Shown one piece after another: positions 22,838-34,871 of a stretch of DNA of 54,423 nt. The notes under the pieces were generated by a model. That model saw only the letters and a list, made by a program, of their open reading frames with translations, searched no databases and was not told the DNA's origin. The translations under genes were made by a program, and so were the position numbers. The stretch is from NCBI RefSeq assembly GCF_005930495.1, contig NZ_SJEX01000026.1, positions 1-54,423 on the forward strand, in the 5' to 3' direction. How positions within the stretch are numbered: the stretch's first letter is position 1; the number at the start of each line of letters is the position of its first letter. This DNA comes from Modestobacter excelsi (lineage in GTDB: Bacteria; Actinomycetota; Actinomycetes; Mycobacteriales; Geodermatophilaceae).

Positions 22838-24325
22838 ATGACCAGCGGTCCCGGCGTCTTCGCCCGGTACCCCGCCTCGGCGTCGGACGAGGCCGTGACC
22901 ACCGACGGCTCGGTCCGGCCCGGCTACGCGCCGGTCGCCCGGGTCCTCGACCGGCTCGGCGGGGTCGGCCTCGCGGCCGTCGTCGGCGCGGTCGCCCAGG
23001 AGCGGCGGATGCGCGGGGTCGTCTTCGGCAGCTACGTCGACGGCCGGCTCGAGGAGCGCCCGTTCCCGCTCTGCCCGGTCCCGCGGTTGCTCTCGGCGGC
23101 CGACTGGGCGCACCTGTCCGCCGGCGTGGAGCAGCGCACCCGGGCACTGAACGCCTTCCTGGCCGACGTCTACCGCCCGGCCGGACGGCGGCGCACCGAC
23201 GAGGACAAGCAGCCCGAAGTGGTGCGGGCCGGCGTCGTCCCGGACTGGGTCGTCTCCGCCAGCCCCGGGTACCGGCCGGACGCCGTCAGCTCAGCTGCGG
23301 CCGGGCAGCAACGGATCACCGTCTCCGGGATGGACCTGCTGCTGGGGCCGGGCGGCTGGGTGGTGCTCGAGGACAACCTGCGGGTGCCCTCCGGCATCGG
23401 CTACGCCCTCACCAACCGGGACAGCGGCCGGGCCGCGCTGCCGCAGCTCTACGCCGAGGCCGAGGCCGCGGGGCTGGTCGACCCGGCCGAGTCGGTGGCG
23501 CTGCTGCACGCCGCGCTGGCCGATGCCGCACCGGCCGGGTGCGCAGGGGTGCCGCAGCTGGGCCTGCTCACCGACGGCCCGCACAACTCCGCCTGGTTCG
23601 AGCACCAGCTGCTCGCCGAGGCGATGGGCATCCCGGTCGTCACCCCCGACGTCCTCTGGCCGACCGCGGCCGGCGGGGTGGCGGTGCAGCGGGACGGCGA
23701 GCGGGTGCCGGTCGACGTCCTGTACCGGCGCTTCGACGAGGCGGACCTGGCCGCCCACCTCACCCCCAGCGGCGCCTCGGTCGGCGCGCTGCTCGCCGGG
23801 GCGGTCCGCGGCGGGCGGCTCGCGGTGGCGAACGTGCCGGGCAACGGCGTGGCCGACGACAAGGCCACCTACCGCTACGTCGACGCGATGATCCGGTTCT
23901 ACCTGGCCGAGGAGCCGGTGCTGTCCTGCGTGCCGACCTGGCTGCTGGCCGAGGAGGTCGACCTGGCCGAGGTGCGCGACCGGCTGCACGAGCTCGTCGT
24001 CAAGCCGGTCGACGGGTACGGCGGGCAGGGCGTCGTCTTCGGCCCGCTGTGCTCGGCCGCCGAACTGGCCGAGCTGCAGGCCGAGGTGCTCGCCGCCCCG
24101 CACCGGTTCGTGGCCCAGCAGCCGGTCGACTTCTCCACGGTCCCGACCGTCGTCGACGGCATGGTCGTGCCGCGGCACGCCGACCTGCGGGTCTTCGCCG
24201 TCGCCGGCAGCAGCACCCGGGCGCTGCCCGCCCCGCTGACCCGGGTCGCGCTCACCGAGGGCTCGATGCTGGTCAACTCCAGCCAGGGCGGCGGCAGCAA
24301 GGACACCTGGGTCCTGCCCACGTGA
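22838..24325 (+). CDS. Circularly permuted ATP-grasp protein (CP_ATPgrasp_2/DUF407 family)
   Basis: 495 residues. Family landmarks: VRPGYAPVARVLDRLG near the N-terminus, RTRALNAFLADVYRPAGRR, the SGMDLLLGPGGWVVLEDNLR, VPSGIGYAL block, AWFEHQLLAEAMGIPVV, NVPGNGVADDKATYRYVDAM, and the nucleotide site ELVVKPVDGYGGQGVVFGP. ATP-grasp enzymes of this kind are thought to make amide bonds between a carboxylate and an amine. The usual partners (alpha-E protein, transglutaminase) are not here; instead it follows an asnO-like amidotransferase and an S9 peptidase, suggesting it makes the peptide bond of the product that AsnO amidates. ATG 22838 fits the family start, though its ribosome binding site is weak. 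Confidence 0.85.
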   Translation: MTSGPGVFARYPASASDEAVTTDGSVRPGYAPVARVLDRLGGVGLAAVVGAVAQERRMRGVVFGSYVDGRLEERPFPLCPVPRLLSAADWAHLSAGVEQRTRALNAFLADVYRPAGRRRTDEDKQPEVVRAGVVPDWVVSASPGYRPDAVSSAAAGQQRITVSGMDLLLGPGGWVVLEDNLRVPSGIGYALTNRDSGRAALPQLYAEAEAAGLVDPAESVALLHAALADAAPAGCAGVPQLGLLTDGPHNSAWFEHQLLAEAMGIPVVTPDVLWPTAAGGVAVQRDGERVPVDVLYRRFDEADLAAHLTPSGASVGALLAGAVRGGRLAVANVPGNGVADDKATYRYVDAMIRFYLAEEPVLSCVPTWLLAEEVDLAEVRDRLHELVVKPVDGYGGQGVVFGPLCSAAELAELQAEVLAAPHRFVAQQPVDFSTVPTVVDGMVVPRHADLRVFAVAGSSTRALPAPLTRVALTEGSMLVNSSQGGGSKDTWVLPT

Positions 24326-24334
24326 GCCGGGTCG

Positions 24335-24358
24335 CAGCGCGTCACTCCCCGAGCGCTG
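24335..24358. terminator. Hairpin between convergent genes (family C)
   Basis: CAGCGC (24335-24340) pairs with GCGCTG (24353-24358) across a 12-nt loop. The loop-and-right-arm sequence CCGAGCGCTGGGACTCC recurs at 50590-50606. It supplies the last codons and stop of galE. Confidence 0.5.
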
Positions 24359-25322
24359 GGACTCCACTCAGCCAGGCGGTCCAGGCGCTGGTGACCATGT
24401 CGTGCAGGTCGTGCCGCGCGCGGAAGCCGAGCTCGCGCTCGATCCTGCCGACCGCGGCCACCACGCTCGCCGGGTCGCCGGCACGGCGGCCGACCACCTC
24501 GGGCGTGGTGTCCGCGCCGGTCACCTCGCCGACCACCCGGAGGACGTCGAGCACGCTGCTGCCCTGCCCGCGGCCCACGTTGTAGGTGCCCCCCGGCGAG
24601 CCGGACGTCAGGGCGCGCACCGCGGCGAGGTGGGCGTCGGCGACGTCGGCGACGTGCACGTAGTCCCGGACGCCGGTGCCGTCGGGCGTGCCGTGGTCGT
24701 CGCCGAACACGACCGGGGCGCAGCCGGCGTCCAGCGCCGCGAAGACCAGCGGCACCAGGTTGGCCGCACCCGAGTCGCCCAGCCGGGGTGCCACCGCGCC
24801 GGCGACGTTGAAGTAGCGCAGCGAGGTCGCGGCCAGACCCCACGCGGCGGCGCAGTCGCGGAGCAGCCACTCGCCGACCAGCTTGGTCTGCCCGTAGGGC
24901 GACAGCGGCCGGCACGGCGCGTCCTCGGCCACCGGGTCCTGCTCGGGGGTGCCGTAGACGGCGGCGCTGCTGGAGAACACGAACCGGGCCACGCCCTTGG
25001 CCCGGCAGCTCTCCAGCAGCGCGATGAGCCCCTCGACGTTCTCCGCGTAGTAGGTCAGCGGGTCGGCGACCGACTCGGCCACCTGCTTCTTGCCGGCCAC
25101 GTGCACCACGCCCTGCACGGCGTGCTCGCGCAGCACCCGGCGGACCAGTCCCCGGTTCCGGACGGAGCCGACGACCAGCGGCACACCGGGCAGCTCCTCC
25201 AGCCGGCCGGCGTCCCCGGTGGACAGGTCGTCGAGCACCACGACCTGCTCACCGGCCGCGGTCATCGCGTGCACGACGTGCGCACCGATGTAGCCGGCAC
25301 CGCCGGTGACCAGCCAGCTCAT
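24342..25322 (-). CDS. galE: UDP-glucose 4-epimerase (extended short-chain dehydrogenase)
   Basis: 326 residues. NAD motif TGGAGYIGAH at the N-terminus, catalytic Ser/Tyr/Lys in FSSSAAVYG and SPYGQTKLVGE, and TSLRYFNVAGA, all typical of GalE, which interconverts UDP-Glc(NAc) and UDP-Gal(NAc). Last gene of the ten-gene operon; its ATG overlaps the PIG-L stop by 4 bp. It could supply the UDP-sugar donor of the glycosyltransferase two genes upstream. The final residues GVPALGE are encoded by the terminator hairpin, so the extreme C-terminus is not conserved. Confidence 0.9.
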   Translation of the reverse strand: MSWLVTGGAGYIGAHVVHAMTAAGEQVVVLDDLSTGDAGRLEELPGVPLVVGSVRNRGLVRRVLREHAVQGVVHVAGKKQVAESVADPLTYYAENVEGLIALLESCRAKGVARFVFSSSAAVYGTPEQDPVAEDAPCRPLSPYGQTKLVGEWLLRDCAAAWGLAATSLRYFNVAGAVAPRLGDSGAANLVPLVFAALDAGCAPVVFGDDHGTPDGTGVRDYVHVADVADAHLAAVRALTSGSPGGTYNVGRGQGSSVLDVLRVVGEVTGADTTPEVVGRRAGDPASVVAAVGRIERELGFRARHDLHDMVTSAWTAWLSGVPALGE

Positions 25323-26044
25323 GCCCGGACCGGGCTGTCCGCCCGGGCCAGCACGGCGCGCGCCGCCGGGCCGGCGAGCAGCACCTCCGGCAGCCCGGCG
25401 AGCGCCGCGCGCATCGGCACCTCGCCACCGAACTGGAAGCCGAGCTGGGTGGTGTAGCAGGCGCAGGCGTCGGCCCGCCGGTCCGCGCGCTGGGCCAGCT
25501 CGACCGGTGCCAGGCCGTCGGGCAGCGCCGGCCCGGGGACGGCGTCGGGTCGGCGGAGCACGTAGGGGCTGTCCCGCCACCAGAGCACCGGCGGGTCCAG
25601 CGACGCGACCGCCCGCAGCACCTGCAGGTGGTCGACGTGCGCGCCCAGCGCCTGCGGCGCCAGCCACAGGTCCGCGTCGAGCCCGGCCAGCCGGTCGGCC
25701 ACCTCGCGCCAGACGTCGTCGCCCGGGTGCACGCCGGCGAACAGGTCGGGGGCGCTGGTGTAGCCGCGGTGCGGTGCCTCGGGCAGGTCGAGGTCGACCG
25801 GGGTGGCGCCGAGGACCGCCATCGCGGCCGCGTTCTCCGCCCGGCGCAGCGCCAGGTAGTCGACGTCGGGGGGCAGGCCCTTGTCCAGCTGGCAGGCCAG
25901 CGCGAAACCGGTCGGGTCGGGCACGCTGCGGGTGAAGCAGGTGACCACGGTGACCTCGTGCCCGGCCTCGGCCAGCGCCGCGAGCGTCGCCCCGGCGGAG
26001 AAGGCCGCGTCGTCCAGGTGCGGGCTGACCGCGAGCACGCGCAT
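25319..26044 (-). CDS. PIG-L family (MshB-like) N-deacetylase
   Basis: 241 residues, zinc-dependent LmbE/PIG-L fold. The metal motif PHLDDAAFSAG gives His9 and Asp12, with the third ligand in AHVDHLQVLRA (about residue 138). Members deacetylate N-acetylglucosamine on inositol carriers (MshB in mycothiol, PIG-L in GPI anchors) or related amino sugars. Here it directly follows a GT4 glycosyltransferase and shares an operon with an inositol-phosphate synthase, the same trio as early mycothiol biosynthesis. Shorter than classical MshB (about 290-300). ATG overlaps the upstream stop by one base (TGATG). Confidence 0.88.
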   Translation of the reverse strand: MRVLAVSPHLDDAAFSAGATLAALAEAGHEVTVVTCFTRSVPDPTGFALACQLDKGLPPDVDYLALRRAENAAAMAVLGATPVDLDLPEAPHRGYTSAPDLFAGVHPGDDVWREVADRLAGLDADLWLAPQALGAHVDHLQVLRAVASLDPPVLWWRDSPYVLRRPDAVPGPALPDGLAPVELAQRADRRADACACYTTQLGFQFGGEVPMRAALAGLPEVLLAGPAARAVLARADSPVRA

Positions 26045-27252
26045 CAGAGCAGGTGCGCCGCGGCCCGGAACCGGCAGCTCGGGTCGACGGTGGTGGGCGG
26101 CGTCCAGTCCAGGTCGGGCACGGTCCCGGCGAGCTCGGTGTAGACCTCGTCGATCGCCCTGGCCAGCACCGGCCAGGAGTACAGCCGGCGGACCTCCTCC
26201 AGGGCCGTCGTCGCCAGCCGGGTGCGCAGCGGGGCGTCGGAGAGCAGCCGGTCCAGCTCCTTGGTCAGGCCCGCGACGTCACCGGGGGCGTGCAGCAGGC
26301 CGTTCTCCTCGTGCCGCAGGCAGTCGACGACGCCGACGCTGTCGGTGCTGACCGTGGGCAGGCCGCTGGCCATCGCCTCCAGCAGCGTGTTGCTGAAGCC
26401 CTCGCTGTAGGTCGGGCTGACGAAGACGTCGGCCGAGCGGTACACCGCCGGCGCCTCGTCCGGGGGCACGTAGCCGAGGAAGGTGGTGCGGCTGTCCGCG
26501 CGGGCGCGGGCCTCCTCGAGGTCCGGGCCGATGCCGGAGACCACCAGCCGGACGCCGTCGGGCAGCGCCTCAAGAAGGTCGAGCACGCCCTTGCGGCGGT
26601 CGACCCGGCCGTGGAACAGCAGCACCGGCGGGTCGGCCAGGCTGCCCGGCGGCCGTTCGGCCGGGGTGAAGCGCCGGGTGTCGGTCGCGCCCGGGACGAT
26701 CCGGAAGCGCACCGGGTCGGTGCCCAGGTTGCCGACCACCTCGTCGCGGAAGCTGGCGCTGCCGATCAGCACCGCGCCGGCGTGGTCGAGCACGGCGCGC
26801 ATCGCCTCGGCGTGGGTGCGGCAGCAGGTGCCCACCCAGTGGCCGTCCCCGCCCTGGATGCTCACCACGTTCGGCACGCCGGTCCGCCGGGAGGCCGCCA
26901 GCACGGCCAGCCCCGGCGGGTAGCCGTACTGGGCGTGCAGCACGTCGAAGGGCCGCCGGTCGTGCAGGCCGACGACGGTGCGCACGATCTCCTCGATGTC
27001 GCCCTCCCAGTCGGCGGGGACGACGGTCTCGCCGCGGCTGGGCAGCGCGTGGACCTCGACGCCGGCCGGCACCCGGTCGGCCGGCGGGGGGCCGCCCCCG
27101 TAGACCCGGGTACCGGCCTCGTCGTCCCGGTACTGGCTGACCAGCGTCACGTCATGGCCGAGCGCGACCAGCTCGCGCAGCAGGTTCTCCGCGTAGACGC
27201 TCATGCCGCTCACCGCCGGCCAGTAGCGCCGGCTCACGAAGCAGACCCTCAT
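26044..27252 (-). CDS. Family 4 glycosyltransferase (MshA-like organisation)
   Basis: 402 residues, GT-B fold. N-terminal acceptor domain begins RRYWPAVSGMSVYAENLLRE; the C-terminal donor domain has LLFHGRVDRRKGVLDLLEAL and the E-x7-E motif SPTYSEGFSNTLLEAM with AMASGLPTVST. Retaining transfer from a nucleotide sugar. Given the adjacent deacetylase, epimerase and inositol synthase I infer transfer of a HexNAc (GlcNAc or GalNAc) to an inositol or inositol phosphate, but the acceptor is not proven by sequence. Start and stop overlap neighbours (ATGA with the isomerase gene). Confidence 0.9.
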   Translation of the reverse strand: MRVCFVSRRYWPAVSGMSVYAENLLRELVALGHDVTLVSQYRDDEAGTRVYGGGPPPADRVPAGVEVHALPSRGETVVPADWEGDIEEIVRTVVGLHDRRPFDVLHAQYGYPPGLAVLAASRRTGVPNVVSIQGGDGHWVGTCCRTHAEAMRAVLDHAGAVLIGSASFRDEVVGNLGTDPVRFRIVPGATDTRRFTPAERPPGSLADPPVLLFHGRVDRRKGVLDLLEALPDGVRLVVSGIGPDLEEARARADSRTTFLGYVPPDEAPAVYRSADVFVSPTYSEGFSNTLLEAMASGLPTVSTDSVGVVDCLRHEENGLLHAPGDVAGLTKELDRLLSDAPLRTRLATTALEEVRRLYSWPVLARAIDEVYTELAGTVPDLDWTPPTTVDPSCRFRAAAHLL

Positions 27253-28079
27253 GCCTCGGCCTTCCTCAGCAGCTCGATGGAGCGGGGCACCAGCTGGTGC
27301 GCCCGGTGGCCGTCGCGGGAGAGCTCCAGGCTGACCAGCCGGTCGTAGCCCACCGCGCGCAGCGCGGCGAGCACGGCGGGCAGGTCGACGTCGCCCTCGT
27401 CGAGCGGCAGGTGGTCGTGGACGCCGCGCCGCATGCCCTCGACGGCGACCGCCCCGAGGTGCGGCCCGAAGGTGGTCACCGCCTCCTCGGGGGTGTACCG
27501 GCCGCTGACCACGCAGTGCCCGGTGTCCAGCGCCAGGGTCAGGCCCGGTACCCGGTCGGCGAGCGCGGCCCAGTCGTCGGCGTCCTCGACGAGCATCCCC
27601 GGCTCTGGTTCGACGGCCAGCGCGTAGGAGCGCCCACCGTGGCTGTCGACCAGCGCCCGCACGCCGTCGACCAGCCAGCGCCGGGCGTCGTCCCGGTCGA
27701 CCCCGGGCTGCGGCACGCCGGCCCAGAAGCTCACCGCCTCGGCCTGCAGCACCTCGGCGAGGTCGCAGGCCAGCCGCAGGTAGGCCAGCCGGCGGGCCCG
27801 GCCCTCCGGCGTCGGGTTGACCAGCGTCGGCTCGTGCTTGACCCGCGGGTCGAGCAGGAACCGCGCGCCGGTCTCGACCACCACGCCCAGCCCGAGGGAG
27901 TCGCAGCGGCGGCGGACCCGCTCGGCGTGCGCGACGGCGTCGTCGGCGAACGGGTCGAGGTGGTGGACGTCGAGGGTGAGGGCCACCCCGGCGTATCCGG
28001 TGTCTGCCAGGAACGACAGCGCGTCGTCCAGCCGGTGCGAGGTCAGCCCGTTGGTGTTGTAGGCGTACCGCAGGCTCAT
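27249..28079 (-). CDS. Sugar phosphate isomerase/epimerase (xylose isomerase-like TIM barrel)
   Basis: 276 residues. TIM barrel of the AP-endonuclease-2 type: RYAYNTNGLTSHRLDDALSF at the N-terminus, metal-site elements AVEPEPGMLV (Glu), LTLALDTGHC (Asp, His) and the last strand VSLELSRDGHR (Glu). Relatives include inosose isomerase/dehydratase (IolI, IolE), hexulose epimerases and EboE of the ebo cluster, which would fit an inositol-derived substrate; here that is inference. ATG overlaps the ycaO-like stop by 4 bp. Confidence 0.85.
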   Translation of the reverse strand: MSLRYAYNTNGLTSHRLDDALSFLADTGYAGVALTLDVHHLDPFADDAVAHAERVRRRCDSLGLGVVVETGARFLLDPRVKHEPTLVNPTPEGRARRLAYLRLACDLAEVLQAEAVSFWAGVPQPGVDRDDARRWLVDGVRALVDSHGGRSYALAVEPEPGMLVEDADDWAALADRVPGLTLALDTGHCVVSGRYTPEEAVTTFGPHLGAVAVEGMRRGVHDHLPLDEGDVDLPAVLAALRAVGYDRLVSLELSRDGHRAHQLVPRSIELLRKAEA

Positions 28080-29527
28080 GACGCCACCGCCAGCGCCGCC
28101 ACGTGCCGGCCGGGCTCGCGGTAGAGCGCGTACAGCTCGCCGACCGCGCGGTCGGCGCCGGCCCGGTCGAACCAGGCCGGACCGCCCAGCCGCTCCTCGG
28201 CGTCGGCGGTCAGGTGGACCCGCGCCCAGCCGCCCGGGTCCGCGCCGACGACGGCGAGCCCGGCGCCGGGGCCCTCGCCGCGGTCCAGCAGCCGCCGCAC
28301 GCCGCGCTCGCCGATCCGGCCGTAGGACATCGTCTCGGCCTCCAGGCCGGGCGCCAGCACCTTCGCCGCGACGGCCTCGCCCCGCGAGGGCTGCAGGTCC
28401 ACCAGCACGTCGAACCCCTCGGCGGTCAGGGTGCCGACCACGTCGTCGTCCCCGCCGGTCGGCAGGTCGGTCAGCGCCACGGTGCTCCGCCGCGACAGCA
28501 CCGAGCCGCGCAGCAGGTCGGTCAGCCGGTCGGTGCCCAGCCGGGTCCACGCGAGCATCGCCTGCAGCGCACGGTCCTCCTCGACCATCCGCTCCGGCGG
28601 GTGCCCGCGCAGCCACTGGTCGAGGTAGCCCGGCGGGGTGGCGGCGGCGACGGCGTCCAGCGGGCCGTGCATGAACGCCTTCCGGCTGCGGGCGGCGGCG
28701 AACTCGTGCAGCGCCTTGCGCACCGCGGCGTCCCGGTCGGGGTCGGCGGCCTCACCGCAGGCGGTGACCATCATCGGGGTGGGCTCCGAGCCGTCCCGCG
28801 AGCAGCCGACGGCGTAGACGTCGACGACGCCGTGCTCGGTGCCGGCCAGCTTCACCAGCACGTCGATGCCGGCGGCGTCGAGCCGGTCGAGCAGCGCCAG
28901 CGCGTCGGGGTCGCGCAGCCCGGCCAGGTCGACGACCACGCCCTGGTCCAGCGCCCGGAAGGTGGTGGCGTTGCCGTCGCGCTGCAGCAGCTCCAGCAGG
29001 GCGTGCCGGGTCGCCCGGCCGGCGTCGAACGCCGCGCCCTGGCCGTTGGTGATCACCGTGGTGAGCCAGCCGCCGGGGGGCGGGTCGCCGGGCAGCTCCT
29101 CGGGCGCGGAGACGACCAGCTCGGCGGGCACCAGCACGGTCCCGCCGTCCCGGCTGCGGGTCATCGGCAGCCACTGCAGCGGCCGGTCGTCGTCGTAGGC
29201 GCTGCCGGCCTCCAGGCACAGCGTGCGCGGGTCCTGCACCCGGTCGCGGCCCTCGGTGCGGGCCAGCTCGCGGTAGGAGCTGAGCACCCGGTCCAGCCCC
29301 TGGTGGGCGCGGATGGACAGCGCCATCTCCGCCATCTCGCCGAGCGCGCCGGTGCGGGCCTCCTCGCGGGTGGCGCCGTAGCCCAGCCCGCTGCCCCCGG
29401 GGTGGGCGGGTGAGGAGGAGAGGAACGCGCTGTGCAGCGGGACGTCGAGCACGTCCAGGCCCTCGATCGCGAACTCCTGGACCCCAGCGGGGAAGGAGTC
29501 GAGGTAGCGCTGGGAGCTGGCGGTCAC
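28076..29527 (-). CDS. YcaO-like family protein
   Basis: 483 residues. The two diagnostic ATP/Mg blocks are visible: GLGYGATREEARTGALGEMA (about residues 47-66) and TNGQGAAFDAGRATRHALLE continuing LLQRDG (about 160-186). YcaO enzymes phosphorylate amide oxygens with ATP, enabling azoline, thioamide or amidine formation, mostly on ribosomal peptides or on ribosomal proteins. No TfuA, dehydrogenase partner or precursor peptide could be found nearby, and the C-terminal proline-rich tail of azoline-forming YcaOs is absent (ends HVAALAVAS). The substrate may be a small molecule of this operon. GTG start overlaps the MBL gene stop by 4 bp. Confidence 0.85.
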   Translation of the reverse strand: MTASSQRYLDSFPAGVQEFAIEGLDVLDVPLHSAFLSSSPAHPGGSGLGYGATREEARTGALGEMAEMALSIRAHQGLDRVLSSYRELARTEGRDRVQDPRTLCLEAGSAYDDDRPLQWLPMTRSRDGGTVLVPAELVVSAPEELPGDPPPGGWLTTVITNGQGAAFDAGRATRHALLELLQRDGNATTFRALDQGVVVDLAGLRDPDALALLDRLDAAGIDVLVKLAGTEHGVVDVYAVGCSRDGSEPTPMMVTACGEAADPDRDAAVRKALHEFAAARSRKAFMHGPLDAVAAATPPGYLDQWLRGHPPERMVEEDRALQAMLAWTRLGTDRLTDLLRGSVLSRRSTVALTDLPTGGDDDVVGTLTAEGFDVLVDLQPSRGEAVAAKVLAPGLEAETMSYGRIGERGVRRLLDRGEGPGAGLAVVGADPGGWARVHLTADAEERLGGPAWFDRAGADRAVGELYALYREPGRHVAALAVAS

Positions 29528-30432
29528 AGCTCGGCCAGCGCGATCGGCGCGGCGTCCGGCCGGCCGGAGAGCAGCCGCTGCACCAGGTGGACGACGTGGT
29601 CGGTGGTCACACCGGGCACCAGCTCGAACGGCGTGGCCACCGCGCCGAACTCCAGCTCGGCGACCACCGCCAGGTACTCCCGCAGCTCGCCGTGCGACAG
29701 CGGGATCTGCGCGTGGAACGCCTTGTGCGCGCTCAGCCCGACCGGGTTGCCGTCGGCGTCCAGGTCGACCTTGAGCGAGTCGCCGCAGAAGAGCACCCCG
29801 CGTCGGCTGTCGTGCAGCACCGAGTGGCCCGGGAAGTGCCCACCGGTGCGGTGCAGGACCAGGTCGGGGGCCAGCTCGAGCACGTCGTCGGCCGGCCAGG
29901 TGACCCGGAAGGCCTTGGTCCACTCCAGGTCGCGCACCCCGACGCAGACCGTCCGCGGCTCCAGCTCCAGCTGCAGCTGCCACAGCGCGCCGTAGCCGTG
30001 CACGTGGCTGGAGGCGAGCACGTCGAGGCCGCCCTTCCCGGCCGCCATCCGGCGCAGCTCGGCCAGCATGGCGTGCGTGTACCAGGGGGCGCACTCGAAG
30101 CCGACCAGCCCGGCGTCGGTCTCGATGACCCAGCCCCGGCTGTCCAGCCCGAAGCGGGGCTCGGTGCCGAACTCGGTGATGCCCGCGACGGCGGTGGGCC
30201 GCCAGAAGCCGGTGACCAGCTCGTCGGCCTGCTTGGGGGTGACGAACTCGAAGCCGTGCTCGGGCAGCGCGTTGCGCACGTCGGCGCAGACCGGGCAGAC
30301 CTGCGGGCCGGGGGCCGGCCAGCGCTGCCAGTGCCCGCAGTTGGTGCAGGCGAAGGCGGGCAGGTCCGGCAGGAGGCCGCGGTAGGGGTTGGTGTCGGGT
30401 CCGGTGGGCGGGTGGGTGGCAGCAGGGCTCAC
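29524..30432 (-). CDS. MBL-fold hydrolase with N-terminal zinc ribbon
   Basis: 302 residues. Residues about 23-45 form a rubredoxin-like zinc ribbon (CTNCGHWQRWPAPGPQVCPVC, given in part: CTNC and CPVC). The rest is a metallo-beta-lactamase fold: SSHVHGYGALWQLQ replaces the usual HxHxDH loop (the Asp-His pair is missing), with later ligands in GGHFPGHSVLHD and LFCGDSLKVD. Family members hydrolyse thioesters or lactones or open cyclic compounds; the altered metal loop suggests one rather than two metals or a different reaction. GTG start overlaps the preceding gene by 4 bp. Confidence 0.8.
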   Translation of the reverse strand: MSPAATHPPTGPDTNPYRGLLPDLPAFACTNCGHWQRWPAPGPQVCPVCADVRNALPEHGFEFVTPKQADELVTGFWRPTAVAGITEFGTEPRFGLDSRGWVIETDAGLVGFECAPWYTHAMLAELRRMAAGKGGLDVLASSHVHGYGALWQLQLELEPRTVCVGVRDLEWTKAFRVTWPADDVLELAPDLVLHRTGGHFPGHSVLHDSRRGVLFCGDSLKVDLDADGNPVGLSAHKAFHAQIPLSHGELREYLAVVAELEFGAVATPFELVPGVTTDHVVHLVQRLLSGRPDAAPIALAEL

Positions 30433-31433
30433 GAGGCGACTCCGGTGCGGTCGGTGGCGGTGTCGAGGGCCTGCACGAGCAGGCGGTGCAGGGCGAGGTC
30501 GCGGTCGGCCGGGTACGGCCAGGGCGCCTCGCCGGTGACGGCGGCGCCGAAGCCGGCGAACTGGGCGGTGAACGGGTCGGTGCCGGCGAAGGGGACGTCG
30601 ACCGGCTCGGGGCGGTACAGCGTCAGGGACCCGCCGGCCGTCTGGCCCATCGTGTCGACGGCGACGGCCATGCCCCGGGTGCCGACCACCTCCAGCCGGC
30701 GGCGGGGGAGGGCGTCCGGGCAGTTGTAGGACACGTGCAGGTCGACCAGCACGCCGCCGGCGGTGCGGCCGGCCAGCAGCGCCCCGTCGTCCACCGGGTA
30801 GTCCTGCACCCGCGTCTGCAGCACGGCGGTGAGCTCGACGACGTCGTCGGCGAGCAGGACGCCGGCCAGGTCCAGGCCGTGCGGCGCCAGGTCGATCGCG
30901 GCGCCGCCGCCGGCCCGCGACCGGTCGACCCGCCAGTTGTCGTGCGGGCCGCCGTCGGGCGACCAGTCGGCCGGCAGCCAGCAGCAGTAGGCGATCCGGA
31001 CGGCGGTGACCGTGCCCAGCTCGGGCACCAGTTCGCGCAGCCGGACGTGGGCGGGGTGCCAGCGCTGGTCGAAGGCGGTGCCGAGCAGGACGCCGGCGCG
31101 GGTGGCCGCGCCGACGGCGGCCTCGGCGTCGGCGGCGTCGGCGGCCAGCGGCTTCTCGCACAGCACCGCGACGCCGGCGGCGGCGGCCGCCTCGACCACC
31201 TGCCGGTGGGCGGAGTTGGGCACCGCGACGTAGACCGCGTCCAGGCCGGGGGTGGTCAGGAACGCTGCCAGGTCGGTGCTGGCGGGCACCTCGGCGCGCA
31301 TCCGCGCCAGCGCTCCCGGGTCGCGGTCGTGCAGGGCCACCAGCCGGGCACCGGGGACCTGCAGCAGGCCGGGGAGGGCGTGGTCGCGGGCCACCCAGCC
31401 GCAGCCGGCGATGCCCCACCCGACGCCGCTCAC
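30429..31433 (-). CDS. Gfo/Idh/MocA family oxidoreductase
   Basis: 334 residues. N-terminal Rossmann motif GIAGCGWVARDHALPGL, the catalytic Lys motif CEKPLAADA (about residue 92) and the His in DLAPHGLDLAG (about 172). The family oxidises or reduces sugars and cyclitols with NAD(P), including myo- and scyllo-inositol dehydrogenases, which would fit the operon's inositol theme. Two consecutive GTG codons are available; GTG 31433 makes the 4-bp GTGA overlap used throughout this operon. Confidence 0.88.
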   Translation of the reverse strand: MSGVGWGIAGCGWVARDHALPGLLQVPGARLVALHDRDPGALARMRAEVPASTDLAAFLTTPGLDAVYVAVPNSAHRQVVEAAAAAGVAVLCEKPLAADAADAEAAVGAATRAGVLLGTAFDQRWHPAHVRLRELVPELGTVTAVRIAYCCWLPADWSPDGGPHDNWRVDRSRAGGGAAIDLAPHGLDLAGVLLADDVVELTAVLQTRVQDYPVDDGALLAGRTAGGVLVDLHVSYNCPDALPRRRLEVVGTRGMAVAVDTMGQTAGGSLTLYRPEPVDVPFAGTDPFTAQFAGFGAAVTGEAPWPYPADRDLALHRLLVQALDTATDRTGVAS

Positions 31434-32485
31434 CACTGCTCCGGCAGGTCGACCAGCAGCCGCCGGCGGGCCGCGTCGGCCGGCAGCGGGTCCGGCCAGC
31501 GGGCCGGCAGGTGCGCCGACCGGGGGCCGTACTCGGCGGCGTACCGCTCGCTGGGCCAGCGGAGCCCGCCGTCGGTGTAGAGCGGGTTGGGCCGCAGCGG
31601 CCCGAGCGGCTCGCCCAGGTCCACCGGCGCCGGGCCGCGCAGGTCGCCGGCCACCAGGGCGATCGCCTCGCTGCCGGCCAGCTCCTCGGCCGCCGCCGGC
31701 CGGGGCGGGCGCCGCTCCAGCAGCGAGCGGGTCAGCTCCTCGTCGTCGTAGAGCACCGTGGCCCCGAGCAACCCGGCGTACTCGGCCGGTGCCAGCGGCT
31801 GGCCGGCGGACACGGTGTCGGCCACGTGTGCGTGCCCGACGACGACGGTGCCGTCCGGGCCGGCCAGCCGGGCCATCGCCGTGGCGGCCGCGGCCTTGTC
31901 CCGGAAGAAGTAGAAGGCGTCGTGGCAGGTGACGTACGCCGGCCGGTCCACCTGCAGGTCCGGTGCGGTCGTCACGTCGGCGCACACGTACCGGGCGGTC
32001 GGGCAGACGAAGCGCCGGGCCAGCCAGAGCTTGGACCAGACGACGTCCAGGCCGACCAGGTCGGCGACGCCGCGGCGGGCGAGCTCGCGCAGCTGGGTGC
32101 CGATGCCGCAGGCCACGTCGACCACGGGTGCGTCCCCGGGCCAGTGCCGGCCCAGCAGCGCCAGGCCGGCCAGGTGCGTGGGGTCGGACCAGCGGTGGGC
32201 GAAGTAGTCACCGACCCGGCCCATGCCGAGGGTGGCCATCGCCTCCCGCAGCGTCCGCGCCGCCGGGACCTGTGCCAGCTGCCCGGCCGGCGGTGCCGGC
32301 TCGGTCCACCAGTCGTCGGCGTCGGCGAACAGCGCCACCCGGGCGCGATCGACCTCGCCGTCGGCCAGCAGGTCGGCGACCCGCCCCTGCAACTCCTCCC
32401 GCCCGGTGCGGGCGAAGGGGATGCCGTCGACGACCGGCACGCCGGCCGCCGTCACGCCCGACGGTGCCGCCGTCCCCAGGCTCAC
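31430..32485 (-). CDS. Class I SAM-dependent methyltransferase
   Basis: 351 residues. Motif I is VVDVACGIGTQLRELARRG (about residues 112-130), motif II LVGLDVVWSKLWLAR, then YVTCHDAFYFFRDKAAA. N- and C-terminal extensions of about 100 and 130 residues are unusual and may be substrate-specific. O-, N- or C-target unknown. Start is uncertain: GTG 32485 gives VSLGTAAPSGV; an in-frame GTG 32548 would begin inside the 79-bp tandem repeat (MSIAAKNERG) and translate repeat DNA. I prefer 32485. Confidence 0.8.
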   Translation of the reverse strand: MSLGTAAPSGVTAAGVPVVDGIPFARTGREELQGRVADLLADGEVDRARVALFADADDWWTEPAPPAGQLAQVPAARTLREAMATLGMGRVGDYFAHRWSDPTHLAGLALLGRHWPGDAPVVDVACGIGTQLRELARRGVADLVGLDVVWSKLWLARRFVCPTARYVCADVTTAPDLQVDRPAYVTCHDAFYFFRDKAAAATAMARLAGPDGTVVVGHAHVADTVSAGQPLAPAEYAGLLGATVLYDDEELTRSLLERRPPRPAAAEELAGSEAIALVAGDLRGPAPVDLGEPLGPLRPNPLYTDGGLRWPSERYAAEYGPRSAHLPARWPDPLPADAARRRLLVDLPEQW

Positions 32486-32494
32486 AGCGTCACC

Positions 32495-32720
32495 GTTCGC
32501 TGCCGCGGCAGGCTCCGCTCCTCGCTCGTTCTTCGCTGCGATGCTCACCTGCCTGTCCGCTCAGGAGTCCTCGGTTCGCTGCCGCGGCAGGCTCCGCTCC
32601 TCGCTCGTTCCTCACTGCGATGCTCACCTGCCTGTCCGCTCAGGAGTCCTCGGTTCGCTCCCGCGGCAGGCTCCGCTCCTCGCTCGTTCCTCGCTGCGAT
32701 GCTCACCTGCCTGTCCGCTC
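32495..32720 (-). repeat. 79-bp tandem repeat, 2.9 copies (family A)
   Basis: Units start at 32495, 32574 and 32653, with only a few base differences; the third stops at 32720. Each contains the palindrome CTGCCGCGGCAG or a one-base variant and GAGCATCGCAG-type sequence (minus strand). On the minus strand the array starts in the TGA stop of the HD-like gene and fills the only gap in the ten-gene operon. The unit length is not a multiple of three, so it is unlikely to be coding. Confidence 0.85.
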
Positions 32721-33624
32721 ACAATCCGCACGCGGCGAGGACGTCGAGGTGGAAGGACTGCACCGGCCCGGCGTGCACCAGCTCCAGGTCGTCCAGCGCC
32801 TGCGCCGCGGTGAAGGCCGCGGCGCGCGCGTGGTGGTGCACCTGCAGCACCCGGTCCAGGACGTCGGCCGCGTGGAACGCCTGCGACTCCGGTGCCACCG
32901 CGTCGGCCCGCAGCGCCAGCACCTGCCGCAGCCGGGCCGCCAGCTCCGCGGGCAGCTCGGCGAGCTCGCGCTCCTCCAGCGTCCCGAGCACCCGGTCCAG
33001 CGCGCCGCCCAGCAGCACCTCCCCGGCGAACCCGGCGTCGGGCAGCACCACGTTGTGCAGGTGGTGGGCCATCCCGACCAGGAACGGCGGCACCGGGTCG
33101 GCACCCAGCGCCGGGGCGAGCAGGCAGCCGTAGACGGCCACGGTGAGGCAGTGGTCGCCGTGGCTCTCCGGCGGCTCGACGATCACCCGCGGCTTGCCGG
33201 GGCTGGTCGCCCCGGCCCGTGGCTGGGCGTTGAGCGCCACCGCCAGGGACGGCGGGGGCCCGGCCGGCCGCACCGCGGGCAGTGCCGCCCGCAGCCGGCC
33301 GGCCAGGTCGGCGTCGATCGCCCCGGCGACCTCGTCGAAGGCGCGTCCCAGCACTGTCTGCGCCTCGTCGTCGGGCATCCCGGCCGCCGCGAGCACCGCG
33401 GCGTCGATCCCGGCCAGTCGCGCCCGGGCCACCGCCGCCGCGGTCTCCGACAGCGCCACCGTCCCGGCGTCCTCGCCCTCGAGCAGCCGGGCCCACGCGC
33501 GGCCGAACGCCTGCTCGGCGAGCGAGCCGGGCGCTGCGGCCGTCCGGACGCGCTTGGCGTCGCCGATCTCGGCGAGCAGGGGCCGCAGCGCCCCGAGGGT
33601 GGACAGGTCGGTCGTCGCCGTCAC
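32719..33624 (-). CDS. HD-domain-like protein with altered HD pair
   Basis: 301 residues. The C-terminal two thirds resemble the HD metal-dependent phosphohydrolase fold: ESHGDHCLTVAVYGC (His), then VGMAHHLHNVVLPDAG where the usual HD is HH, followed by an Asp. The N-terminal 110 residues are helical and unrecognised (DLSTLGALRPLLAEIGDAKR). If active it could dephosphorylate inositol phosphate made by the gene upstream; the altered pair makes this uncertain. GTG 33624 overlaps the inositol synthase stop (GTGA). Confidence 0.65.
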   Translation of the reverse strand: MTATTDLSTLGALRPLLAEIGDAKRVRTAAAPGSLAEQAFGRAWARLLEGEDAGTVALSETAAAVARARLAGIDAAVLAAAGMPDDEAQTVLGRAFDEVAGAIDADLAGRLRAALPAVRPAGPPPSLAVALNAQPRAGATSPGKPRVIVEPPESHGDHCLTVAVYGCLLAPALGADPVPPFLVGMAHHLHNVVLPDAGFAGEVLLGGALDRVLGTLEERELAELPAELAARLRQVLALRADAVAPESQAFHAADVLDRVLQVHHHARAAAFTAAQALDDLELVHAGPVQSFHLDVLAACGL

Positions 33625-34871
33625 CGTGAGGCGGGCAGGGCGTCGCCCCCGGCCGGTGCCGCGCCGTTGCCCAGCCACTCCAGCAGCTCCTGCTCCTGAC
33701 GGTGCAGGGCGTGCTCGGGGGTGCTGCCGTCGGCGGTGATCGGGGCCTTGAAGAACCAGCCGAGGTGCCGCTGCACGCCGCCCTCCCCGCGCTGCTGGGC
33801 GAGATCGACCAGCCGGACGATCTCCACGGCGAGCGGTGCGGCCAGGATCGAGTCCCGGCACTGGAAGTCGACCTTGATCTGCATGCGCTGGCCGAGGAAG
33901 CCGACCAGGTCGATGGCGTCCCAGGCCTCCTTCTGGTCACCGCGCGGCCGGTAGTAGTCGATCCGGACGACGTGGTCCTCGACGGGGTAGCCGAGGATCG
34001 AGTCGAGCACCTTCGCCTTGGTCTGCAGCTTGCTCTCCAGCGAGGCCGGGTCGTCGAGCGCGAGCCCGTCCCGGTTGCCGAGGATGTTGGTGGAGTACCA
34101 GCCCTCGACGGTGAGCGCGCGGCTGCGGAACGCCGGGGCGAGCACCGTCTTCATCATCGTCTGGCCGGTCTTGCCGTCCTTGCCCGCGATCGGCACGCCG
34201 CGCTGCTCGGCGAGCTGGACCAGCGCCGGGACGTCGGCCGACAGGGAGGGCGTGAAGTTGGCGTAGCCGACGCCCTCGGTGATCGCCGCGTAGGCGTAGA
34301 CCATCGACGGGGTGATCGCCCGGTCGTCGGCGTCCAGCCCGGCCTCGAACGCCTCGGGCGTCTGCAGGCAGGCCGCCGCCGGGTCGGGCCAGCGCTCGGT
34401 GGAGGCCAGGTTGAGCAGCACCAGCCCGTCGAGCTGCTGCTCTTCGCGGAAGCGGCGCAGGTCGGCACGGACGGCGTCCACCTGGGCCCGGCGGCCCTCG
34501 GCGAGCACCACGTTGCCGCCGGTGACGTTGCGGCAGAAGTCGGCGTCGCCGGCGGCGGGCCAGGGGGTGATGGACGACAGCAGCGGCTCGGCCTGGGACA
34601 GCTGGCGGGTGTCGAGCACGCCGTGCTGCTCGGCGGCCTTGTAGAGGTCGGAACCGTCCAGGTCCCAGCCGCCGACGACCAGGTCGTCGTAGCCGGCGAG
34701 GCCGGTGGCCTCCTCCAGGGACGCGTCACCGAGGGTCAGCCCCGCCAGGGGGAGGCCGTCGGCGCCGACGGCGCCGAGCCGCAGGAGCTCCAGCCCGGCG
34801 ACGGCGGTGGTCGCCACGGCGCCCCCGAGCCCGACGATGGCCGTTCCTACTCGACGTGGTGGGTGCGCCAC
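33621..34871 (-). CDS. ino1: Inositol-3-phosphate synthase (long type)
   Basis: 416 residues; converts glucose 6-phosphate to 1L-myo-inositol 1(3)-phosphate with NAD. Nucleotide motif VGLGGAVATTAVAGLELL at the N-terminus, and the family blocks GKDGKTGQTMMKTVLAP and GWYSTNILGNRDGLAL. Mycothiol-type Ino1 of actinobacteria is about 360 residues and differs in these blocks, so this looks like a second, specialised enzyme. First gene of the ten-gene operon; GTG 34871 has GAGGAG five bases upstream. It commits carbon to an inositol phosphate, setting the theme for the pathway. Confidence 0.88.
   Translation of the reverse strand: MAHPPRRVGTAIVGLGGAVATTAVAGLELLRLGAVGADGLPLAGLTLGDASLEEATGLAGYDDLVVGGWDLDGSDLYKAAEQHGVLDTRQLSQAEPLLSSITPWPAAGDADFCRNVTGGNVVLAEGRRAQVDAVRADLRRFREEQQLDGLVLLNLASTERWPDPAAACLQTPEAFEAGLDADDRAITPSMVYAYAAITEGVGYANFTPSLSADVPALVQLAEQRGVPIAGKDGKTGQTMMKTVLAPAFRSRALTVEGWYSTNILGNRDGLALDDPASLESKLQTKAKVLDSILGYPVEDHVVRIDYYRPRGDQKEAWDAIDLVGFLGQRMQIKVDFQCRDSILAAPLAVEIVRLVDLAQQRGEGGVQRHLGWFFKAPITADGSTPEHALHRQEQELLEWLGNGAAPAGGDALPASR

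Follow-up and report, generated by a model that had tools for sequence, protein, structure and literature searches.

Mycothiol is made by the Ino1-MshA-MshB-MshC-MshD pathway. Mycosporine-like amino acids and gadusol arise through a dehydroquinate-synthase-like cyclase, an O-methyltransferase and an ATP-dependent ligase, and Ebo clusters combine the EboD cyclase with the TIM-barrel protein EboE. Examples of YcaO enzymes that act on peptides are given in PMC11002830. Here, we analyzed a window of 54,423 nucleotides from Modestobacter excelsi (contig NZ_SJEX01000026.1; forward-strand coordinates) and identified a nine-gene unit that begins with a gene of the inositol-phosphate synthase family (Ino1L) and includes a YcaO gene. 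This unit probably encodes one self-contained pathway. Its product would be an intracellular small molecule in which a cyclohexane-type ring, or cyclitol, bears an amino sugar, and its YcaO would act on a non-peptide carbonyl. We found no published description of the gene set in the open PubMed Central literature, although an account in a subscription journal could exist; the pathway is apparently unreported and without a known product.

A nine-gene unit within a ten-gene operon

Ten genes, all on the minus strand, occupy positions 24342-34871. From 5' to 3' (g10 to g1), and with assignments from Pfam and NCBIfam for all but g9, they are:

33621-34871, minus strand: Ino1L (g10), myo-inositol-1-phosphate synthase family, 416 amino acids, first gene of the unit
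32719-33624, minus strand: g9, HD-fold protein of the YfbR/HDDC2 type, 301 amino acids
31430-32548, minus strand: methyltransferase (MT; g8), class I S-adenosylmethionine-dependent, 372 amino acids, PF13649/PF08241, missing in some relatives
30429-31433, minus strand: Gfo/Idh/MocA oxidoreductase (Gfo/Idh; g7), 334 amino acids, GTG start at 31433 or 31436
29524-30432, minus strand: metallo-beta-lactamase-fold protein (MBL; g6), 302 amino acids, with an N-terminal CxxC...CxxC rubredoxin-like knuckle
28076-29527, minus strand: YcaO-domain ATP-dependent enzyme (g5), 483 amino acids, PF02624 at 1.4e-46
27249-28079, minus strand: AP_endonuc_2 TIM-barrel isomerase/dehydratase (TIM; g4), 276 amino acids
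26044-27252, minus strand: GT4 glycosyltransferase (g3), 402 amino acids
25319-26044, minus strand: PIG-L/LmbE zinc de-N-acetylase (g2), 241 amino acids, PF02585
24342-25322, minus strand: UDP-glucose 4-epimerase GalE (g1), 326 amino acids, TIGR01179 at 339 bits (cut-off 262.3), accessory

Eight of the nine junctions overlap by 1-4 bp: Ino1L/g9, MT/Gfo, Gfo/MBL, MBL/YcaO, YcaO/TIM, TIM/GT4 and PIG-L/galE by 4 bp each, and GT4/PIG-L by 1 bp. The sole gap, 170 bp between g9 and MT, is closed to a 4-bp overlap in 7 of 11 relatives from the host family. The coordinates thus bear out an earlier note on this DNA, which had described ten minus-strand genes with eight overlapping junctions, and the gene names that it used match the Pfam and NCBIfam assignments. 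Two of its proposals were not supported. It had placed the UDP-sugar epimerase in the pathway, yet galE follows PIG-L directly on the same strand in only 2 of the 11 family relatives (L032 and L033); in four it lies downstream in the opposite orientation, and in five none occurs within the fetched stretch. It had also treated the methyltransferase as an essential part, and we found none in L063, L132, L141, L166 and L172. The nine genes from Ino1L to PIG-L form a real unit, with galE as an accessory gene. Exporter, transporter, regulator and resistance genes are all absent from the nine.

Conservation and distribution of the unit

Co-conservation of the genes in relatives had been set beforehand as a check on the proposed pathway. 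A survey of a genome collection with a g9 profile gave 204 relatives, the best 80 of which were taken; 11 of these end at contig edges, leaving 69 to be judged. All nine genes, in a single order and on one strand, were found in 48 of the 69 loci, a count that includes one locus with an extra weak, far-downstream Gfo match and a few (such as L107, L119 and L104) with a gene matched in at least two pieces. Another 13, every one from Methylobacteriaceae, have the same order minus MBL and so retain eight genes. The remaining eight comprise four with only Ino1L to YcaO, one without Ino1L, one Verrucomicrobiota variant, and two Kineococcus variants that lack Ino1L and have TIM divergent upstream, one of them also without MT. 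The recurrence of the same gene order in other families and phyla places the arrangement beyond chance.

The relatives in this survey bear the names Geodermatophilus, Blastococcus, Modestobacter, Goekera, Actinomycetospora, Pseudonocardia, Streptomyces, Kineococcus, Micromonospora and Rubrobacter, together with Methylobacterium, Methylorubrum, Sphingomonas, Skermanella, Aerophototrophica, Acetobacteraceae, a Verrucomicrobiota bin and some further ones. The shared gene order extends across Actinomycetota and Pseudomonadota. The cluster is also present on a plasmid of Hymenobacter volaticus (Bacteroidota), where the methyltransferase is missing, the Gfo annotation is split in two and GT4 falls in two frames, and all nine genes are on a plasmid record of Roseomonas haemaphysalidis. 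In all six of the MBL-less Methylobacteriaceae genomes that were checked, MBL is kept outside the cluster (361-381 bits), and no neighbor of the relocated gene is common to all six stretches.

Across 57 genomes of the host family, 23 have a YcaO match: the window's own, 11 at 74-90% identity, nine at 50-51% and two weak ones. The 11 close relatives all have the neighboring genes in the same order, save that Goekera (L042) lacks Ino1L. For the nine genomes with a YcaO of about 50% identity, the other unit genes were not found in the fetched stretch. At L044:8282-10740 (Geodermatophilaceae), one such stand-alone YcaO and a bacteriorhodopsin-like gene share a strand, about 30 bp apart. No bacteriorhodopsin-like gene was found in the stretches of eight other YcaO-bearing genomes of that genus (tblastn, 1e-25), the L044 neighbors recur in at most two of these eight, and the context indicates no function.

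In a phylum sample of 296 genomes searched with an MBL profile, the eight matches were the window, six in one other family (Rubrobacteraceae) and one weak match. The six Rubrobacteraceae matches carry the cluster, that of L063 ending at a contig edge and having no methyltransferase. Of 59 genomes sampled from Methylobacterium, the genus of Methylobacterium platani, 58 contain g9. A class-wide sample gave g9 in 3 of 385 genomes, two of them also in the Methylobacterium sample and the third with g9 in two pieces, and a Verrucomicrobiota order in 3 of 197. First-look candidates per genome numbered 6 for the class, 11 for the Verrucomicrobiota order and 8 for the phylum, against 39 for Methylobacterium, so some matches in the wider samples may have been missed.

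Flanking genes do not travel with the cluster: among the flanking open reading frames (ORFs) of 37 chosen loci, the most widely spread family spans five genus labels, and the figure for most of the families listed is three. In a quick tree built from four concatenated proteins, covering 64 of the best-80 loci plus the window and leaving out Rubrobacter and Verrucomicrobiota, one branch separates Actinomycetota from Pseudomonadota, which suggests that the gene set is old or has rarely moved between these two phyla.

Several loci show peculiarities of their own. The Gfo/Idh and PIG-L matches of L064 and L107 (Rubrobacter marinus) are fragmented and these genes look broken, the other seven being whole. 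In L091 and L125 (a Frankineae bin) TIM directly follows MBL, and a different contig has a copy of YcaO some 7 kb upstream of Ino1L; this is a rearranged or mixed assembly. Beyond YcaO, the next gene is an IclR regulator in the three Actinomycetospora loci examined for it. On the Hymenobacter plasmid, an annotated bacillithiol deacetylase gene, bshB1, adjoins the cluster on the opposite strand (L166:17401-18135).

Gene fusions and exchange of the first enzyme

Two fusions link three of the encoded proteins. Gfo and MBL form a single ORF of 671 amino acids in the Rubrobacteraceae locus L062, and MBL and YcaO form one of 777 amino acids in the Verrucomicrobiota bin L132; in L172, from the same Verrucomicrobiota order, the MBL and YcaO matches likewise share one open frame of 795 codons. 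A second YcaO directly follows PIG-L in L172 (positions 60-1571).

The clusters of this order also differ at their head. In L132, a dehydroquinate-synthase-fold cyclase (PF01761, 113.9 bits) takes the place of Ino1L and overlaps the start of g9; it passes PRK06203 at 552 bits (cut-off 333). The cyclases of L172 and L173 score 545 and 467 bits against the same model and each adjoins g9, so that this type of cyclase replaces Ino1L in all three clusters found in the order. The window has Ino1L instead, and no such cyclase besides that of L132 was met among the best 80 of 204 relatives. The TIM gene was not found in the L132, L172 and L173 loci; L132 is also without PIG-L and MT, and L172 without MT. 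The cyclase swap, together with the missing TIM, suggests that a carbocycle is the probable product of the first step and the substrate of the TIM enzyme.

The number of inositol-phosphate synthase genes per genome was also compared. The three Kineococcus genomes and the Goekera genome that lack Ino1L have exactly one other such gene each (one underlying search having no positive control), 13 of 14 other cluster genomes have two or three, Methylorubrum salsuginis has one, and the Verrucomicrobiota bin has none.

Proposed pathway

We infer all of the reactions, and the product, from enzyme family together with the gene order, co-occurrence, fusions, enzyme swap and residue conservation observed. 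The invariant residues given below are presumably the metal-binding or catalytic sites of their families.

In the first step, Ino1L very probably closes glucose-6-phosphate to an inositol phosphate, which would be the first product in the main cluster type. Both family domains are present (PF07994/PF01658, 218.5 and 120.4 bits), and D232, K234, K241, K281, K285 and K314, which we take to be the catalytic Lys/Asp positions, are invariant in 23 of 23 proteins. Its closest solved relative is 7nwr (400 bits), against 49 bits for 1gr0; these are the Bacteroides and M. tuberculosis enzymes, respectively.

In the second step, Gfo/Idh would convert one hydroxyl group of the ring into a ketone, and dehydration or isomerization of the ring would fall to the IolE-like TIM protein. 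The closest solved relative of Gfo/Idh is the 1,5-anhydrofructose reductase 2glx (200 bits), with inositol dehydrogenases at 76-100 bits. TIM is related to UlaE (41.6 bits) and to IolE (9zmu, 40.8 bits), and its E157, D185, H188 and E252 are invariant (23 of 23).

The third step, as suggested by the families, would be the addition of N-acetylglucosamine or a similar sugar by GT4, followed by deacetylation to a free amine by PIG-L. The GT4 family profile matches 6kih (131 bits), 3c48 (111), BshA 5d00 (109) and the D-inositol-3-phosphate glycosyltransferase 7qsg (104), where 6kih is a sucrose-phosphate synthase and 3c48 is MshA. PIG-L, in which H9, D11, D12 and H139 are invariant (21 of 21), is closest to GlcNAc deacetylases of teicoplanin/A40926-type glycopeptides (109-115 bits).

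In the fourth step, YcaO would use ATP to make a carbonyl reactive toward an amine or a sulfur nucleophile; this carbonyl could be that of an amide or the oxidized ring's enol/ketone. YcaO would work here with Gfo and the MBL-fold protein, a co-operation that the fusions support. YcaO has 6pe3 (MJ1094) as its closest solved relative, at 89 bits; MJ1094 is an enzyme of McrA-glycine thioamidation. PF00753 is found in 21 of 21 MBL proteins and RUBY_RBDX in 11 of 21 (E<=0.1); four Cys, H143, H145, H199, D218 and H236 are invariant in all 21, the usual HxHxDH motif reads HxHx[YF]G, and a structure search with the MBL model returned the general fold only. A fifth, optional step would be decoration by the methyltransferase in most lineages.

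The gene g9 has no Pfam match at E<=0.001. Its fold matches YfbR-type HD phosphohydrolases, but the complete H...HD...D metal site and catalytic Glu are lacking: in 29 of 29 proteins, HD is replaced by HH and the residue aligned with YfbR Glu72 is Asn.

Several observations weigh against this scheme. As g9 lacks two residues of ordinary HD phosphatases, no phosphatase for the inositol phosphate has been identified in the unit, and neither a sulfur-carrier nor an amine-donor gene is among the nine. Four Actinomycetospora loci (L100, L103, L117 and L131) contain only Ino1L to YcaO, with GT4, PIG-L and TIM not in the locus, suggesting that, as far as the locus itself goes, the sugar part may be optional; PIG-L is also missing from the L132 locus. 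The order differs in L173, where GT4 and PIG-L precede MBL and YcaO and an extra gene lies between the last two. Finally, Gfo is kept in the clusters with a dehydroquinate-synthase-type cyclase, which would itself be expected to give a ketone; the ring may therefore not be where Gfo acts.

To the earlier account, our analysis adds the HD-like g9, the fusions, the exchange of the first enzyme for a cyclase of the dehydroquinate-synthase type, and carriage by nearly all Methylobacterium genomes sampled. The unit, a probable nine-gene pathway, is carried almost throughout a major leaf-dwelling genus, as judged by its marker g9, and is present in several phyla, with a natural exchange of two unrelated ring-forming enzymes at its head. 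If the proposed scheme is true, YcaO, so far mainly an enzyme of peptide chemistry, would enter small-molecule carbohydrate chemistry. Methylobacterium lends itself to manipulation, which makes the product and its function (protection against light, drying or redox stress) directly testable.

Candidate products and alternative explanations

A tentative extension of the scheme, which we consider doubtful, is that the product belongs to a novel family of sunscreens or photoprotectants, resembling mycosporines but built on inositol: Ino1L and the IolE-like enzyme would take over from the dehydroquinate-synthase-type cyclase of gadusol and mycosporine synthesis, YcaO rather than an ATP-grasp enzyme would join an amine to the activated ring enol, and glucosamine would solubilize the product. 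Many cluster carriers are sun-exposed or radiation-tolerant genera, and a role as ultraviolet (UV) protectant is possible. The UVA-absorbing compound of Yoshida 2017 is reportedly highly polar, and all positive isolates are said to be Methylobacterium; a genus-wide gene set for a polar amino sugar fits this absorber, a match that is suggestive only. On the other side, we know of no report of a UV absorber for some of the genera that also carry the cluster, and sulfur chemistry by YcaO is possible. UVA-absorbing compounds of Methylobacterium are reported in PMC12573535, which cites Yoshida 2017, and methylobamine is mentioned in PMC9664959. The cluster could be the source of this UVA-absorbing methylobamine; if so, methylobamine would gain its genes and YcaO a sugar or cyclitol substrate.

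It is unlikely that the product is instead a low-molecular-weight thiol or sulfur protectant of the mycothiol or bacillithiol kind, made by YcaO sulfurizing a GlcN-cyclitol with a sulfur or redox step by MBL. MshA and BshA are among the closest solved relatives of the GT4 profile, PIG-L and Ino1 types are both in the unit, YcaO is nearest to MJ1094 and scores 51.8 bits against the McrA-glycine thioamidation model TIGR03266, MBL bears a rubredoxin-like knuckle and there is no exporter gene among the nine. However, a cysteine ligase, TfuA and a sulfur carrier are all missing from the nine, PIG-L is distant from MshB, and the host is already equipped with MshA and MshC.

We regard an exported aminocyclitol antibiotic or signal as quite improbable. 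An aminocyclitol joined to an amino sugar resembles antibiotics, and the cluster has a scattered distribution in the host family, where 12 of 57 genomes, the window's own among them, have it at a YcaO identity of at least 74%, but the nine genes lack transporter, regulator and resistance functions, no flanking gene is widely kept, and carriage by nearly every Methylobacterium genome sampled (58 of 59) is unlike most antibiotic clusters.

A cluster for a ribosomally synthesized and post-translationally modified peptide (RiPP), with YcaO as peptide-modifying enzyme, would agree with peptides being the substrates of most characterized YcaO enzymes and with minus-strand ORFs of 45 and 53 amino acids in or across the g9/MT gap of the window, but is highly improbable given the closure of that gap in most family relatives (a point qualified by 78 g9/MT junctions of the survey, at which the MT profile begins a median of 66 and at most 288 away), the lack of a widely kept flanking ORF among those of at least 90 amino acids that were compared, and the mainly sugar or cyclitol types of the other eight genes.

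Comparison with known systems

All enzymes of the unit come from known superfamilies, and the unit lacks features by which the mycothiol, mycosporine, peptide-YcaO and Ebo systems are defined. With mycothiol synthesis, the nine-gene unit shares an inositol-phosphate synthase, a GT4 enzyme, a PIG-L-type deacetylase and the expected pseudodisaccharide start. It differs in that Ino1L is on a different branch and can be replaced by a dehydroquinate-synthase-type cyclase, and in having several extra enzymes. The window GT4 reaches only 62 bits against the MshA model TIGR03449 (cut-off 462.5), an MshC-type cysteine ligase is absent from the nine, and PIG-L, closer to the teicoplanin-type deacetylases, scores 21.7 bits against MshB. 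We asked whether the GT4/PIG-L pair might be the only Msh pair of the host by seeking MshA, MshC and another inositol-phosphate synthase, and all three are located elsewhere in its genome: MshA at 635 bits (same cut-off), MshC at 631 bits (cut-off 485.1; contig C135) and a second inositol-phosphate synthase. The genome also has seven further PIG-L genes. The three genes elsewhere rule out the cluster as the mycothiol pathway of the host and, together with the co-conservation, uphold the earlier proposal of a single pathway, separate from mycothiol, that joins an inositol-type ring to GT4, PIG-L and YcaO.

The YcaO fold is shared with peptide-acting enzymes such as SagD and those of McrA-glycine thioamidation. 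The cluster YcaO nevertheless lies far under the peptide model cut-offs, with 69.1 bits for TIGR03604 (cut-off 219.25) and a score for TIGR03266 well below its cut-off of 365; it reads QRD for the ERD motif in 27 of 27 proteins, and no conserved precursor peptide was found among flanking ORFs of at least 90 amino acids.

Like Ebo clusters, the unit can pair a sugar-phosphate cyclase with an AP_endonuc_2 TIM barrel, and the cyclases of L132, L172 and L173 pass PRK06203, the family to which EboD presumably belongs. Unlike them, it has YcaO, MBL and GT4 instead, and the families that Pfam and NCBIfam name for the nine genes include no EboA, EboB or EboC (UbiA).

The main cluster type differs from the mycosporine/gadusol pathway in having an inositol-phosphate synthase, in using YcaO for ATP-grasp and in its additional GT4, PIG-L, Gfo/Idh, MBL and HD proteins. 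None of the nine genes encodes an ATP-grasp ligase. A circularly permuted ATP-grasp gene lies nearby on the plus strand (22838-24325), convergent with the operon and ending 16 bp from its end, and a homologue stands beside the cluster in 2 of the 11 family relatives (L032 and L038). The two systems are alike in their ring-closing cyclase, their methyltransferase and an ATP-using enzyme able to join an amine to an activated enol or ketone, and three cluster variants (L132, L172 and L173) likewise start with a cyclase of the dehydroquinate-synthase fold.

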